Source of the DNA: Paraburkholderia sabiae
Lineage (GTDB): Bacteria; Pseudomonadota; Gammaproteobacteria; Burkholderiales; Burkholderiaceae
Assembly: GCF_030412785.1 (NCBI RefSeq)
Contig: NZ_CP125295.1
Location: forward strand, 682,001 to 746,000
Direction of reading: 5' to 3'
Length of the DNA: 64,000 nt
Shown: one piece after another, positions 13,762 to 42,542 of the stretch
Numbering within the stretch: position 1 is the first letter of the stretch
Layout of the letters: every line of letters starts with the position of its first letter
The notes under the pieces: generated by a model
Seen by the model: the letters and a program-made list of their open reading frames with translations, nothing else
Database searches by the model: none
Told to the model about the DNA's origin: nothing
Translations under genes and position numbers: made by a program

Positions 13762-14538
13762 ATGAGCGACAAACAAATCCGTCTGTCCGTGAAGGGCGTG
13801 AACAAGCGCTTCGGCGGTTTGCAGGCGCTGTCGGATGTCGGCCTGCAGATCGAGGAAGGCACGATCTACGGTCTGATCGGCCCGAACGGCGCCGGCAAGA
13901 CGACGTTCTTCAACGTGATTACCGGTCTCTACACGCCGGACTCGGGCGAATTCAAGCTCGACGGCACGCCGTACACGCCGACGGCCGTCTATCAGGTGGC
14001 GAAGGCGGGCATCGCGCGTACGTTCCAGAACATCCGTCTGTTCGGCGGCATGACGGCGCTGGAAAACGTGATGGTCGGCCGTCACGTGCGCACGAAGCAC
14101 GGCCTGCTGGGCGCCGTGTTCCAGACGCCGGCTGAGCGTCAGGAAGAGCGCGAGATCAAGGAACGCGCGCTCGAACTGCTCGAATACGTCGGCGTGCTGC
14201 AATACGCGGACTACACGTCGCGCAACCTGTCGTATGGTCACCAGCGCCGTCTGGAAATCGCACGCGCATTGGCGACCGATCCGAAGCTGCTCGCGCTCGA
14301 CGAACCGGCTGCCGGCATGAACGCGACGGAGAAGGTCGAACTGACGAAGCTGCTCGACAAGATCCGCGCGGACGGCAAGACGATCCTGCTGATCGAGCAC
14401 GACGTGAAACTGGTGATGGGTCTGTGCAACCGGATGACGGTGCTCGACTATGGCAAGGTGATCGCCGAAGGTCTGCCGCATGACGTGCAGAAGGACCCGA
14501 AGGTGATCGAGGCATATCTGGGCGCGGGGGTTCACTGA
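13762..14538 (+). CDS. livG: Branched-chain amino acid ABC transporter ATPase LivG
   Basis: 258-residue ABC ATPase. Walker A is GPNGAGKTT, the signature is LSYGHQRRLEIARAL (LivG-type LSYGxQR rather than LSGGQ), Walker B is LLALDEPAAGMN and the switch histidine is in IEHDVK. The IARTFQNIRLF and TALENVMVGRH segments are typical of the family. It overlaps livF by one base (TGATG), implying equal translation of the two ATPases. Confidence 0.96.
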   Translation: MSDKQIRLSVKGVNKRFGGLQALSDVGLQIEEGTIYGLIGPNGAGKTTFFNVITGLYTPDSGEFKLDGTPYTPTAVYQVAKAGIARTFQNIRLFGGMTALENVMVGRHVRTKHGLLGAVFQTPAERQEEREIKERALELLEYVGVLQYADYTSRNLSYGHQRRLEIARALATDPKLLALDEPAAGMNATEKVELTKLLDKIRADGKTILLIEHDVKLVMGLCNRMTVLDYGKVIAEGLPHDVQKDPKVIEAYLGAGVH

Positions 14539-15254
14539 TGGCTACGGCAATGTTGAAAATCAAGGGCCTTCAGGTCAACTACGGCGGCATTCAGGCCGTC
14601 AAGGGCGTCGACCTGGAGATCGCGCAGGGCGAACTCGTTACGCTGATCGGCGCCAATGGCGCGGGCAAGACGACCACGATGAAGGCGATCACGGGCCTGA
14701 AGCCGTACTCGGCCGGCGACATCGAGTACATGGGCCAGTCGATCAAGGGCGTGCCGCCGCATGAGCTGCTGAAGCGCGGTCTGGCGATGGTGCCGGAAGG
14801 TCGCGGGATCTTCGCGCGTATGTCGATCGTCGAGAATATGCAGATGGGTGCTTATCTGCGTAACGACGCGGACGGCATCAAGAAGGACGTCGAGCGGATG
14901 TTCGGCTTTTTCCCGCGTTTGAAGGAGCGTGCTACGCAGCTGGCCGGTACGTTGTCCGGCGGTGAACAGCAGATGCTGGCGATGGCCCGTGCCGTTATCT
15001 CGAAGCCGAAGCTGCTGCTGCTCGACGAACCGTCGATGGGCCTGTCGCCGATCATGGTCGAGAAGATCTTCGAAGTGGTGCGTGAGATTTCCAAGGAAGG
15101 CATTACGGTGATGCTCGTTGAGCAGAATGCTCGTCTGGCTCTGCAGGCCGCTGATCGTGGGTATGTGATGGATTCCGGGACTGTCACCATGTCTGGTGAC
15201 GCCAAGCAGATGCTTGATGATCCTAAGGTGCGGGCTGCATACCTCGGGGAGTAA
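14538..15254 (+). CDS. livF: Branched-chain amino acid ABC transporter ATPase LivF
   Basis: 238-residue second ATPase of the heterodimer. Walker A GANGAGKTT, signature LSGGEQQMLAMARAV, Walker B LLLLDEPSMGLSP and switch region VEQNARLAL are all present. It ends the livHMGF operon, followed by a terminator and then by a large palindromic repeat. Confidence 0.96.
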   Translation: MATAMLKIKGLQVNYGGIQAVKGVDLEIAQGELVTLIGANGAGKTTTMKAITGLKPYSAGDIEYMGQSIKGVPPHELLKRGLAMVPEGRGIFARMSIVENMQMGAYLRNDADGIKKDVERMFGFFPRLKERATQLAGTLSGGEQQMLAMARAVISKPKLLLLDEPSMGLSPIMVEKIFEVVREISKEGITVMLVEQNARLALQAADRGYVMDSGTVTMSGDAKQMLDDPKVRAAYLGE

Positions 15255-15290
15255 TTTGCCCTTGCAGGGCGAGCTCTGATCTGTGGTTCG

Positions 15291-15325
15291 AAGGCTGCAT
15301 GTGATGAACATGTGGCCTTTTTTAT
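15291..15325 (+). terminator. Terminator after livHMGF
   Basis: Imperfect hairpin AAGGC..CATGT/ACATG..GCCTT followed by TTTTT, 36 bp after the livF stop. Confidence 0.75.
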
Positions 15326-15344
15326 TTCTTCGCTGGGATCCGCG

Positions 15345-15905
15345 GTGTTTTGCTGCGCTGGCATCCGCGAATTCGTATCGGTCTATTAGTGTTGCCCCTG
15401 TGCGGGGCGGCAGTTACTTTCTTTGCAGCGGCAAAGAAAGTAACCAAAGAAAGCCGCTTTAACCCTACGGTGCCTGCCCGGATAGCGCTGCGACATATCG
15501 CAGTTGAGCTATCGCGCAGCAACGCGACACTCCGTAGGAAGCCCACAGTCAACCACGCGCAGGATGAAAACCCATCCGCATTTACAGCACATTCGGCCGA
15601 AAGAAACCCGTGGAGCAATTTGCGGAGTCGAAGCACAAGTCAACAAGCCAGCCGAATGTGCCCCAACTGGGTCGAGTCTTTCACGACGCGTGCGGTTGAC
15701 TGCGGGCTTTCTACGGAGTGTCGCGTCGCTGCGCGACAACTCAAGGACAGTGCGCCGTAGCGCTATCCCGGCAGGCACCGGAGGGTTAAAGCGGCTTTCT
15801 TTTGCCTACTTTTCTTTGCCGCTGCAAAGAAAAGTAGGTGCCGCCCCGCACAGGGGCAACGCATGAACAACGCTAACGAATCGCGGATGCCAGCAAAGCG
15901 AAAAC
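15345..15905. repeat. Large nested palindromic repeat element (long form)
   Basis: The 658-bp space between livF and the GNAT gene is almost entirely one imperfect inverted repeat with arms of about 275 bp and centre near 15,620. The outer arms read TGCTGCGCTGGCATCCGCG on the left, with the complement CGCGGATGCCAGCAAAG on the right. Further in come CCCCTGTGCGGGGCGGCA, then in each arm a self-complementary hairpin (ACTTTCTTTGC-AGCG-GCAAAGAAAGT at 15416-15441 and its cognate near 15808-15835), then AAGCCGCTTTAACCCT and CGACACTCCGTAG on both sides. No gene in it is supported; small frames are mirrored shadows. A short relative lies at 54.2 kb. Confidence 0.9.
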
Positions 15906-15912
15906 CAAACCA

Positions 15913-16371
15913 CTACCCAGCGTCGCAGACAAGATCGAGCCTCTTCCCGAGACTAACGACATCATCGACCCGATACCCGAGTGCCTCATAAAACCCACGG
16001 ATATCGGCTTTCACGCTAAGCACCTGAAGATTTACTTTAGGACAACCGCGAGCAGCAAGAGCGGCCTCGGCGTGACGCACGAGTCGAGTCCCAATCCCAT
16101 GCCGCCGGCAGGCAAAATCAACGGCAAGCGAATACATCCACCCGCGATGCCCGTCATACCCCGCCATCACAGTGCCCACAATCCGGGCACCGGCAACAGC
16201 AACAAAGAACAACTCAGGCTGCGTAGTGAGCTTGTTCTTGATTGAAAGATGCGGATTGCGCTGCGGCCTGCTCGTATCCCCATACTCCGGGAACGCTTCG
16301 AGCCACAACGCAATCACGGCATCCGTGTCGGCCGCATCGAACGCGCGGATCGACAGTGGCGCGTCTATCAC
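15913..16371 (-). CDS. GNAT family N-acetyltransferase
   Basis: 152-residue single-domain GNAT protein. The acetyl-CoA pyrophosphate loop is seen in FACRRHGIGTRLVRH, preceded by the beta-4 strand GWMYSLAVDF and followed by NLQVLSVKADIRGFYEALGYR, as in the YpeA/RimI-like group. The substrate is unknown. Translation starts at GTG (16369-16371) and overlaps the stop of the upstream aminotransferase gene (GTGA), so the two are coupled. Its last residues and stop codon (CDAG-stop) lie in the conserved outer edge motif of the palindromic repeat. Confidence 0.85.
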   Translation of the reverse strand: MIDAPLSIRAFDAADTDAVIALWLEAFPEYGDTSRPQRNPHLSIKNKLTTQPELFFVAVAGARIVGTVMAGYDGHRGWMYSLAVDFACRRHGIGTRLVRHAEAALAARGCPKVNLQVLSVKADIRGFYEALGYRVDDVVSLGKRLDLVCDAG

Positions 16372-17552: not shown

Positions 17553-17638
17553 GGCTACAGGCTCCAGGCAAACAGGGATAAGAAACCGCCTCGGACAAAA
17601 TGGCCCAGCAACGGAAAGAAAGGAAACGCCAGAAATAC

Positions 17639-17665
17639 AAAAAGCCACGGCATGCCGTGGCTTTC
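17639..17665 (-). terminator. Terminator after the flavin reductase gene
   Basis: Minus-strand hairpin AAAGCCACGG-CATG palindrome followed by TTTTTG, between the reductase stop at 17890 and the aminotransferase start. Confidence 0.75.
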
Positions 17666-17889
17666 ATGATTCGAACTGCTTGCGCGTTGTTCGCGCGAAT
17701 CCGTGACGAAGCCAGCGGCGCCCCTAAGGGAGCAGCGAGCGGCGACGTCGAAGTTCGGACAGGATGCGGTTCATGCGCGAAAGAATACGACAATGCCGGC
17801 GCCCATGTAAACCTGCAATTTGCATGTCTTCACGTTTGCCGGCCGGTTTCATCTCCGCCAATCAGTCGATGCGGATGACTGCGCAACGA

Positions 17890-41949: not shown

Positions 41950-42157
41950 CGGTCTGTTCGGGCTGCGATACAAGGGCTACAGAAGCTGGCGGCACGGTGA
42001 CGAACAGGTGACGAACGACCGCGCCGAATGGATTGTCGATTTTACCTGCGTTGGGAAGCGCACGTTGAATACGGAAAATGTCAATCGGCTGGAAAGGCCC
42101 GTATGCAGGGCGCTTGAAGCTCCTGAACAGTGTTCATTATTACAATTGGTTATAGTT

Positions 42158-42186
42158 TTGACATTCTATAGTGTTGACGATCTATA
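42158..42186 (+). promoter_or_regulatory. Strong sigma-70 promoter upstream of the lytic transglycosylase
   Basis: A consensus TTGACA at 42158-42163 and TCTATA at 42181-42186 with an ideal 17-bp spacer. Transcription should start near 42193, leaving a leader of about 350 nt before the coding start at 42543. Confidence 0.75.
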
Positions 42187-42192
42187 AAACCC

Positions 42193-42342
42193 TGATAGAA
42201 TCCGGTCACATCGGTTGCAGGGTATTGATAGTTTTTACCACCGTCCCCCGGTCCTTCAGACGCAACGCGTCGCTCTTACCGCCCCTGCACGGTATTGACG
42301 GTCATATGTAGTCTCCACCAGCGCATTTCGACGCTGGTTTTT
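42193..42342 (+). ncRNA. Candidate structured leader RNA or small RNA (about 150 nt)
   Basis: Downstream of the strong promoter are an outer stem TGCAGGG (42216-42222) with CCCTGCA (42283-42289), an inner hairpin GACGC-AAC-GCGTC (42259-42271), and then a terminator-like hairpin ACCAGCG/CGCTGGT with TTTTT at 42317-42342. After that a second long-range stem GGGAGCCAA (42348-42356) with TTGGCTCCC (42400-42408) occupies the remaining leader. This could be a short sRNA or a regulatory 5' leader of the transglycosylase gene. I match it to no known family. Confidence 0.45.
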
Positions 42343-42542
42343 CGCGTGGGAGCCAACGAATGCGTGCTTTTTGGCATGCAGGCGGCCCTTTTCAAGATTT
42401 TGGCTCCCCAACGGTACTTTTTGCCGTTTTCCCGACGTCGTTGTCGCCTTAACCAGAGTGCGCGGCGTCTTGGCTTTTGCGAACTGCATTCCAGCCGGTC
42501 ATTTTTACGGTGTTCGCGGAGCCAGCAACATGGGAGATCTGA

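Follow-up and report, generated by a model that had tools for sequence, protein, structure and literature searches.

Copies of a large palindromic intergenic repeat of Paraburkholderia sabiae and its relatives evolve in concert, with conserved positions and lineage-specific cores

What is the long inverted repeat that separates livF from a GNAT gene in Paraburkholderia sabiae, and does it stand alone or belong to a family with a history of its own? It was found at 15345-15905 of the window, i.e. the whole 64,000-nucleotide stretch that was analyzed, between livF (14538-15254, plus strand) and the GNAT gene (15913-16371, minus strand), both named from the original prediction and from the translations of the open reading frames. 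A nested palindrome of about 560 bp with embedded hairpins had been predicted here, and this was confirmed, since the inverted arms and nested hairpins were all located in the sequence and every arm block described as shared was present. The arms paired in an outer segment (15348-15420 with 15831-15903, 73 nt, 77% complementary), a middle segment (15418-15439 with 15811-15832, 22 nt, 100%) and an inner segment (15446-15597 with 15651-15802, 152 nt, 78%), and each arm had a perfect hairpin of its own (15413-15426/15431-15444 on the left and 15805-15819/15824-15838 on the right). The RNA fold, which had been proposed as a check, reached -377.8 kcal/mol (z = -27.6) and the DNA fold gave z = -23.1, with 0 of 100 shuffles equally good in either case. 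Homogenisation acts on a single unit that extends from GGCATCCGCG (15360) to CGCGGATGCC (15891), and at either end of the window copy the outer hairpin looks like a terminator and faces inward. A further small hairpin, GTCTGCGACGCTAGTCGCC (consensus of 79 copies), lies outside this unit in many other copies; in the window copy it was visible as a right-hand remnant only. The features are collected in Table 1.

Table 1. Features of the palindromic element and its borders in the window
Feature	Position	Strand	Evidence
Repeat unit, GGCATCCGCG to CGCGGATGCC	15360..15891	.	Arms, 79-copy alignment, locus identity stopping at edge
Left edge block GGCATCCGCG	15360..15369	+	79-copy alignment
Left outer hairpin GCCCC-TGTGC-GGGGC followed by T-rich tract; terminator-like, inward-pointing	15394..15408	+	
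Left core hairpin GTTACTTTCTTTGC-AGCG-GCAAAGAAAGTAAC	15413..15444	+	Arm search, stem-variant tally
Left inner arm, type I	15446..15597	+	Arm search, copy alignment
Centre, 53 nt, without arm-to-arm pairing	15598..15650	.	Arm search
Right inner arm, type I	15651..15802	-	Arm search, copy alignment
Right core hairpin CCTACTTTTCTTTGC-CGCT-GCAAAGAAAAGTAGG	15805..15838	-	Arm search
Right outer hairpin	15843..15857	-	
Right edge block CGCGGATGCC	15882..15891	-	
Outermost small hairpin, remnant (GTCTGCGACGC side), within GNAT 3' end	15920..15933	-	
Terminator-like hairpin after livF, kept beside element; same spacer hairpin in relatives	15290..15320	+	
Left-end match to Rfam RF02421 (Bp1_684)	15332..15423	-	41.1 bits, cut-off 44
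Right-end match to Rfam RF02421 (Bp1_684)	15828..15945	+	39.1 bits, cut-off 44

In G000, the genome that contains the window (9.9 Mb, 4 contigs), a similarity search gave at least 82 matches on both strands, from 40 scored of 185 candidates, most of them with 72-81% identity. The 16-nt core hairpin CTTTGCNNNNGCAAAG was present in 239 exact copies (control, 0), and pairs of hairpins at the right spacing revealed at least 92 two-hairpin elements (65 and a further 27, of which 26 lay on C1 and 1 on C2). From these, 80 loci were fetched (50 of the 65, all 27, two from the similarity search and one tandem triple). In the alignment of 79 copies the end modules were near-invariant, and the extra small hairpin was seen further out in many of them. 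Among 241 distinct arm modules tallied, the outer hairpin was identical in 237, and a broken stem (10-11 bp) occurred in 17; the stem variants stayed paired (CCTAC/GTAGG, CTTAC/GTAAG and GTTAC/GTAAC). Some copies had peculiarities of their own: three core hairpins stood in tandem and in the same orientation, 428 and 425 bp apart, at L080 (G000:C1:2412827-2416327), TTTTTGC or TTTTGGC tracts occurred in variable number between the outermost hairpin and GGCATCCGCG, and the GGCATCCGCG block was repeated at some copies (flanks such as L014R, L069R, L077L, L015R and L017R).

Of the 150 genomes in the family sample, 20 carried the pattern CTTTGCNGCNGCAAAGAAA, and these fell into 3 of its 25 genera: G000 and 6 of 13 others in genus g1, 12 of 14 in g10 and 1 of 3 in g14; in the class sample it was found in G000 only (1 of 274). 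The 80 matches listed from named genomes (at least 120 stretches) all came from Paraburkholderia or unspecified "Burkholderia sp.", and 21 replicons listed as plasmids matched (Paraburkholderia 9, Burkholderia 7, Caballeronia 5). P. caribensis and P. phymatum were among the species with the repeat. These plasmid matches suggest that g10 is Caballeronia; in seven stretches fetched from g10, the same end modules surrounded other inner palindromes. Six close relatives carried 240-493 hairpins per genome, and the outer hairpin was present in 28 of 29 chosen genomes, a choice based partly on having it. No match was found among 50,697 phage records, and a phage origin was rejected. In draft genomes, copies were seen within a few hundred bases of contig ends, as if breaking assemblies (G071 C1:182, C2:360, C10:127 and C13:183; G100 C74:214, C76:221 and C95:208). 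C1 measured 6.58 Mb in G000 and 3.7 Mb in G166 and G193, so a replicon fusion is possible. With this copy number and these matches in other genomes, a single local inverted duplication without wider meaning is ruled out for practical purposes, and the repeat family that had been anticipated for the locus is real.

Is the element a gene? Open reading frames of 89-136 aa cross the palindrome, and one of 59 aa gave a weak DUF1010 match (17.1 bits, cut-off 25), but five open reading frames tested gave no Pfam family at cut-off and the hairpin spacing of 79 copies (374-398) took all three residues modulo 3 (33, 27 and 19 copies). A protein-coding gene or gene remnant has thus a negligible probability, in line with the earlier view that no plausible gene was present. 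The position relative to genes was distinctive. A simple codon-usage caller, which put the right-hand gene of the window copy in the wrong place, called both neighbors for 60 of the 80 copies (the 20 with one neighbor uncalled were dropped), and 25 of these were convergent, 33 tandem and 2 divergent, compared with 34, 139 and 49 of the 222 pairs at least 50 bp apart that served as background in a 400-kb block (Fisher P = 2.7e-5 for convergent and 2.8e-4 for divergent pairs). Element copies therefore favor gene 3' ends and avoid the regions of divergent promoters. Between the core hairpin and the end of an inward-facing gene the median distance was 137 bp; of 97 called ends, 67 lay at 76-198 bp and the remainder reached up to 1174 bp, partly through genes that the caller missed; the median distance from the stop codon to GGCATCC was 61.5 bp (68 ends).

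The original prediction knew of no named family with these blocks, and this has to be amended: the outer module of both arms resembles RF02421 (Table 1), a candidate sRNA of Burkholderia, which gives the blocks a name in part. The window copy was below the gathering cut-off at both ends, and the Rfam search at gathering level listed neither, while several other places in G000 exceeded the cut-off of 44. In the family sample, RF02421 was found in at least 32 of 120 genomes and over cut-off in at least 26, with up to 28 candidates scored per genome. At four loci read in genus g12 (L332-L335), the best RF02421 match was a single half-module at a conserved place with 126-137 bits, which may be the ancestral unit; other g12 matches stood 0.6-4 kb from each other in opposed pairs, an arrangement that points to palindromic copies in that genus too. 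According to the available part of PMC3521395, the founder candidate Bp1_Cand684 of B. pseudomallei was detected by RT-PCR, its flanking genes were unrelated, and a trans-acting sRNA was suggested; the words "repeat" and "palindrom" had 0 occurrences in that text. Unrelated flanks are no less compatible with a repeat module than with a gene for a trans-acting RNA. The window also contained Rfam matches over cut-off to two sRNA families of Burkholderia, Bp1_738 at 42140-42344 and BcKCsr7 at 17638-17788, both on the minus strand.

The comparison of loci between species covered 800 kb of the related genome G166 and 400 kb of G193. Locus pairing was tried for 18 fetched G000 copies with collinearity assumed; 17 were paired by their flanks and 1 was unpaired, and all 17 paired loci were occupied in both G000 and G166, all with type II in G166. 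In the first 400-kb block, 12 of 12 G000 loci had a counterpart in G166 (in G000 one of them is reduced to a deletion remnant, and at G166r 12401 the G166 copy is a degenerate type I), and in the part shared with G193, 10 of 10 loci corresponded. Alignments of G000 with G166, at 91-94% identity, crossed the end modules and stopped at the inner block, and the inner blocks were unrelated: type I of about 320 bp in G000 and type II of about 447 bp in G166. The type I marker occurred 163 times in G000, 4 times in G166 and 0 times in the other 27 of 29 chosen genomes, and the type II marker 175-274 times in each of six relatives, 6 times in G000 and 0 times in the other 22 of 29. Both G000 and G166 contained relics of the other type. 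The livF-GNAT site was readable in 18 genomes (two more livF-matching genomes gave no GNAT and were not counted), with the element in 7 (G000, G166, G150, G186, G185, G193 and G221) and an element-free spacer of 110-202 bp in the other 11. Because G166 was closer to G000 at 4-fold sites (0.148) than was G193 (0.208), the group probably had type II first, and G000 probably swapped to type I. For three G193 copies, the corresponding site was empty in both G000 and G166; two of these sites held a terminator-like hairpin with a T-run, in place of which G193 had the element with T/A-rich borders.

The inner blocks carried no memory of their locus. Type II blocks of G166 and G193 were 0.700 alike at the same locus (n = 8) and 0.697 at different loci (n = 73), and the likeness within a genome was higher, 0.867 in G166, 0.785 in G193 and 0.782 for type I in G000 (n = 36 each); the inner block of G000 was about 0.31 alike to that of G166 or G193. 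Copies within a genome were more similar to each other than to copies of the same locus in another species, which is the mark of concerted evolution. The relative orientation of the inner blocks was random (5 of 8 inverted). In a zone test that took both sides of 17 loci (34 same-locus and 1088 different-locus pairs), same-locus pairs were closer outside the element, with 0 of 2000 permutations equaling them at -220..-150 and at -150..-100 and 20 of 2000 at -100..-80, and from -80 inward the locus signal was gone (393 to 1380 of 2000). A version with up to ten loci in three species agreed. The copies of this palindrome thus show concerted evolution with a sharp edge, conserved positions and a lineage-specific core; the cores were overwritten in each lineage, and therefore the copies evolve together and not place by place.

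The two arms of a copy differed in a regular manner. In G000 the inner arms formed two lineages, with likeness of about 0.85 for A-A, 0.83 for B-B and 0.76-0.77 for A-B, and most copies paired one arm of each; the two arms of one copy were 0.73-0.75 alike. A/B features had been used to orient the copies (8 of 79 were ties), which builds in part of this contrast. Substitutions on one arm that are not mirrored on the other had been taken as the sign of an old element under constraint; that the arms differ was upheld, and the A and B lineages offer a more specific reading than age. The outer 50 nt of the two sides of one copy were 0.737 alike and those of different copies 0.717, a difference matched by 1 of 2000 permutations; this hints weakly at copying from arm to arm or of whole elements. 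Within lineage A, type I copies of G000 showed about 15% arm-to-arm difference, and since this matches the G000-G166 difference at 4-fold sites, a recent sweep of type I from a single donor was unsupported. Two reduced copies were also met: L302 appears to have collapsed to a single core hairpin, and the remnant at block position 316272 of G000 seems to have lost its interior between GTGC repeats that lie at the base of the palindrome.

The element belongs to a large non-coding intergenic family of palindromic repeats, very large and BIME-like, and we consider it rather probable that ectopic recombination homogenises this family. Each element is built of two opposed end modules, with two hairpins each, around a lineage-specific inner palindrome, and ectopic homologous recombination (gene conversion) among about 100 copies would do the overwriting, anchored by the near-identical end modules. 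SbcCD cleaves extruded hairpins, and breaks of this type may start the process. The two arms of a copy would be kept different, as lineages A and B, because perfect palindromes of this size would presumably be cut or deleted. For REP heterodimers, the available part of PMC3733652 suggested that unlike arms protect against SbcCD-type clearance, and by analogy such protection may apply here as well. The element may also have a side role as a two-way terminator or 3'-end stabiliser. Recombination as the cause, hairpin cleavage as the trigger and arm difference as the protection are inferred from these patterns. Against conversion as the full account, the edge is too sharp for simple gene conversion, with no residual locus signal in the outermost module, and three loci were gained or lost in one species, which implies some insertion or loss process besides conversion. 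More speculatively, the palindromes might drive their own replacement. An extruded hairpin would be cut and repaired from another copy, and a core that is cut less often would spread over about 100 loci like an enzyme-free homing element, so that cores swap (type II to type I in G000) while positions stay fixed and the A/B arm difference is a selected resistance trait; we hold this only tentatively and do not expect it to be the case.

Two other explanations had to be weighed. An element mobilised in trans could have disappeared from its favored sites, such as gene ends and terminator hairpins, and inserted there anew time after time, each species thus filling these sites with its current type. 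This would account for the sharp edge of the homogenised zone, the random orientation of the inner block and the three sites where G193 has the element and G000 and G166 lack it, including the two whose empty version carries a terminator-like hairpin. Against it, independent insertions would have to recur at every one of the paired loci, and no target duplication was seen by eye at the three empty sites in G000 and G166. Mobilisation by a RAYT was rejected, as the only Y1_Tnp gene matched in G000 had no adjoining repeat, its stretch containing neither GTCTGCGACG nor the outer hairpin. No autonomous version was seen either among the long copies examined, which proved to be elements with ordinary ISs inserted. 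Re-insertion was consequently judged unlikely, and from the original description of a non-autonomous REP/BIME-like repeat, the very large BIME-like nature stood and mobility was left without support by the three empty sites and the Y1 gene. The inserted ISs, which we take to be of IS481 type and DDE_Tnp_1 type, lay at fixed points of the element (G000 block 14445-16157 = L112; G193 104457 and 128195 = L157 and L158). All 3 block insertions of the IS481-type IS lay in the loop of the core hairpin, as did those in L298-L300, which had been picked for a broken hairpin, and the DDE_Tnp_1 IS of G166 was at the stem foot in 4 of 4 block insertions (L132-L151 and L312-L331) and in L294.

Alternatively, a functional RNA or bidirectional terminator might be under selection, a palindrome arising where both flanking genes need one. 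The RF02421 matches at both ends and across the family, the RT-PCR detection of Bp1_Cand684 in the available part of PMC3521395, the terminator-like outer hairpins pointing inward, the bias toward 3' ends and convergent genes and the stem variants that keep pairing would all be consistent with this. Yet the inner half is exchanged wholesale with no constraint between types, most livF-GNAT sites read do without the element, and a stem can be broken, as in the 17 arm modules above. Native terminator-like hairpins were equally common at element ends (12 of 68) and at other convergent ends (11 of 58), and by pairs the counts were 2 of 12 and 10 of 29; the elements therefore do not visibly replace them, take-over of terminators was rejected, and the two G193 loci are examples and not the rule. 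Selection for such a role as the origin of the palindrome appears quite improbable.

Homogenisation by ectopic recombination, if true, would make this family a replicated natural record of that process, with about 100 fixed positions per genome that have been rewritten from each other and relics of the losing type left behind. It would bear on the survival of long palindromes in bacteria and on the spreading of a non-coding repeat through existing sites without a transposase. It would also have a bearing on the long-standing idea of gene conversion in the evolution of REP-like repeats, which a review of 1988, to go by its title, is said to have proposed for REPs. Practically, such repeats can yield spurious open reading frames, and in draft genomes they are found near contig ends. 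If the reading of the end modules is right, the "sRNA" module RF02421 is in these genera mostly the end of a repeat element. Among the open-access papers listed, none dealt with this palindrome family.

Among known systems, the element resembles REP, BIME and REPIN repeats, being a high-copy intergenic palindrome, mostly downstream of genes and often in opposed pairs; heterodimers are likewise preferred in several REP families. It differs in having about 530-560 bp, four hairpins and an exchangeable inner palindrome, and it does not fit the REP unit, which is described as 20-40 bp in the available part of PMC3733652 and has one stem-loop. Burkholderia was not mentioned in the main text of PMC3733652 and PMC2267715, as far as available. 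The outermost small hairpin had the consensus TTGTCTGCGACGCTAGTCGCCA; CGTC occurred in some copies and was absent from the consensus, and, unlike GTAG-type REPs, the element had no linked RAYT in G000. As in BIMEs, the units are paired in opposition, intergenic and mostly at 3' ends. The RF02421 model covers the outer module of both arms, but G000 has opposed pairs around an inner palindrome where g12 has single half-modules. MITEs are similarly short, non-coding and present in many copies with inverted ends; here, the element is complementary over almost its whole length, no target duplication was seen at the three empty sites, and no related transposase was found in the long copies read. Finally, as in concerted evolution of the rRNA-operon type, as far as the accounts available describe it, copies within a genome are more alike than those of the same locus elsewhere, but such families consist of few, long, selected genes, whereas here about 100 short palindromes swap their core for unrelated sequence.
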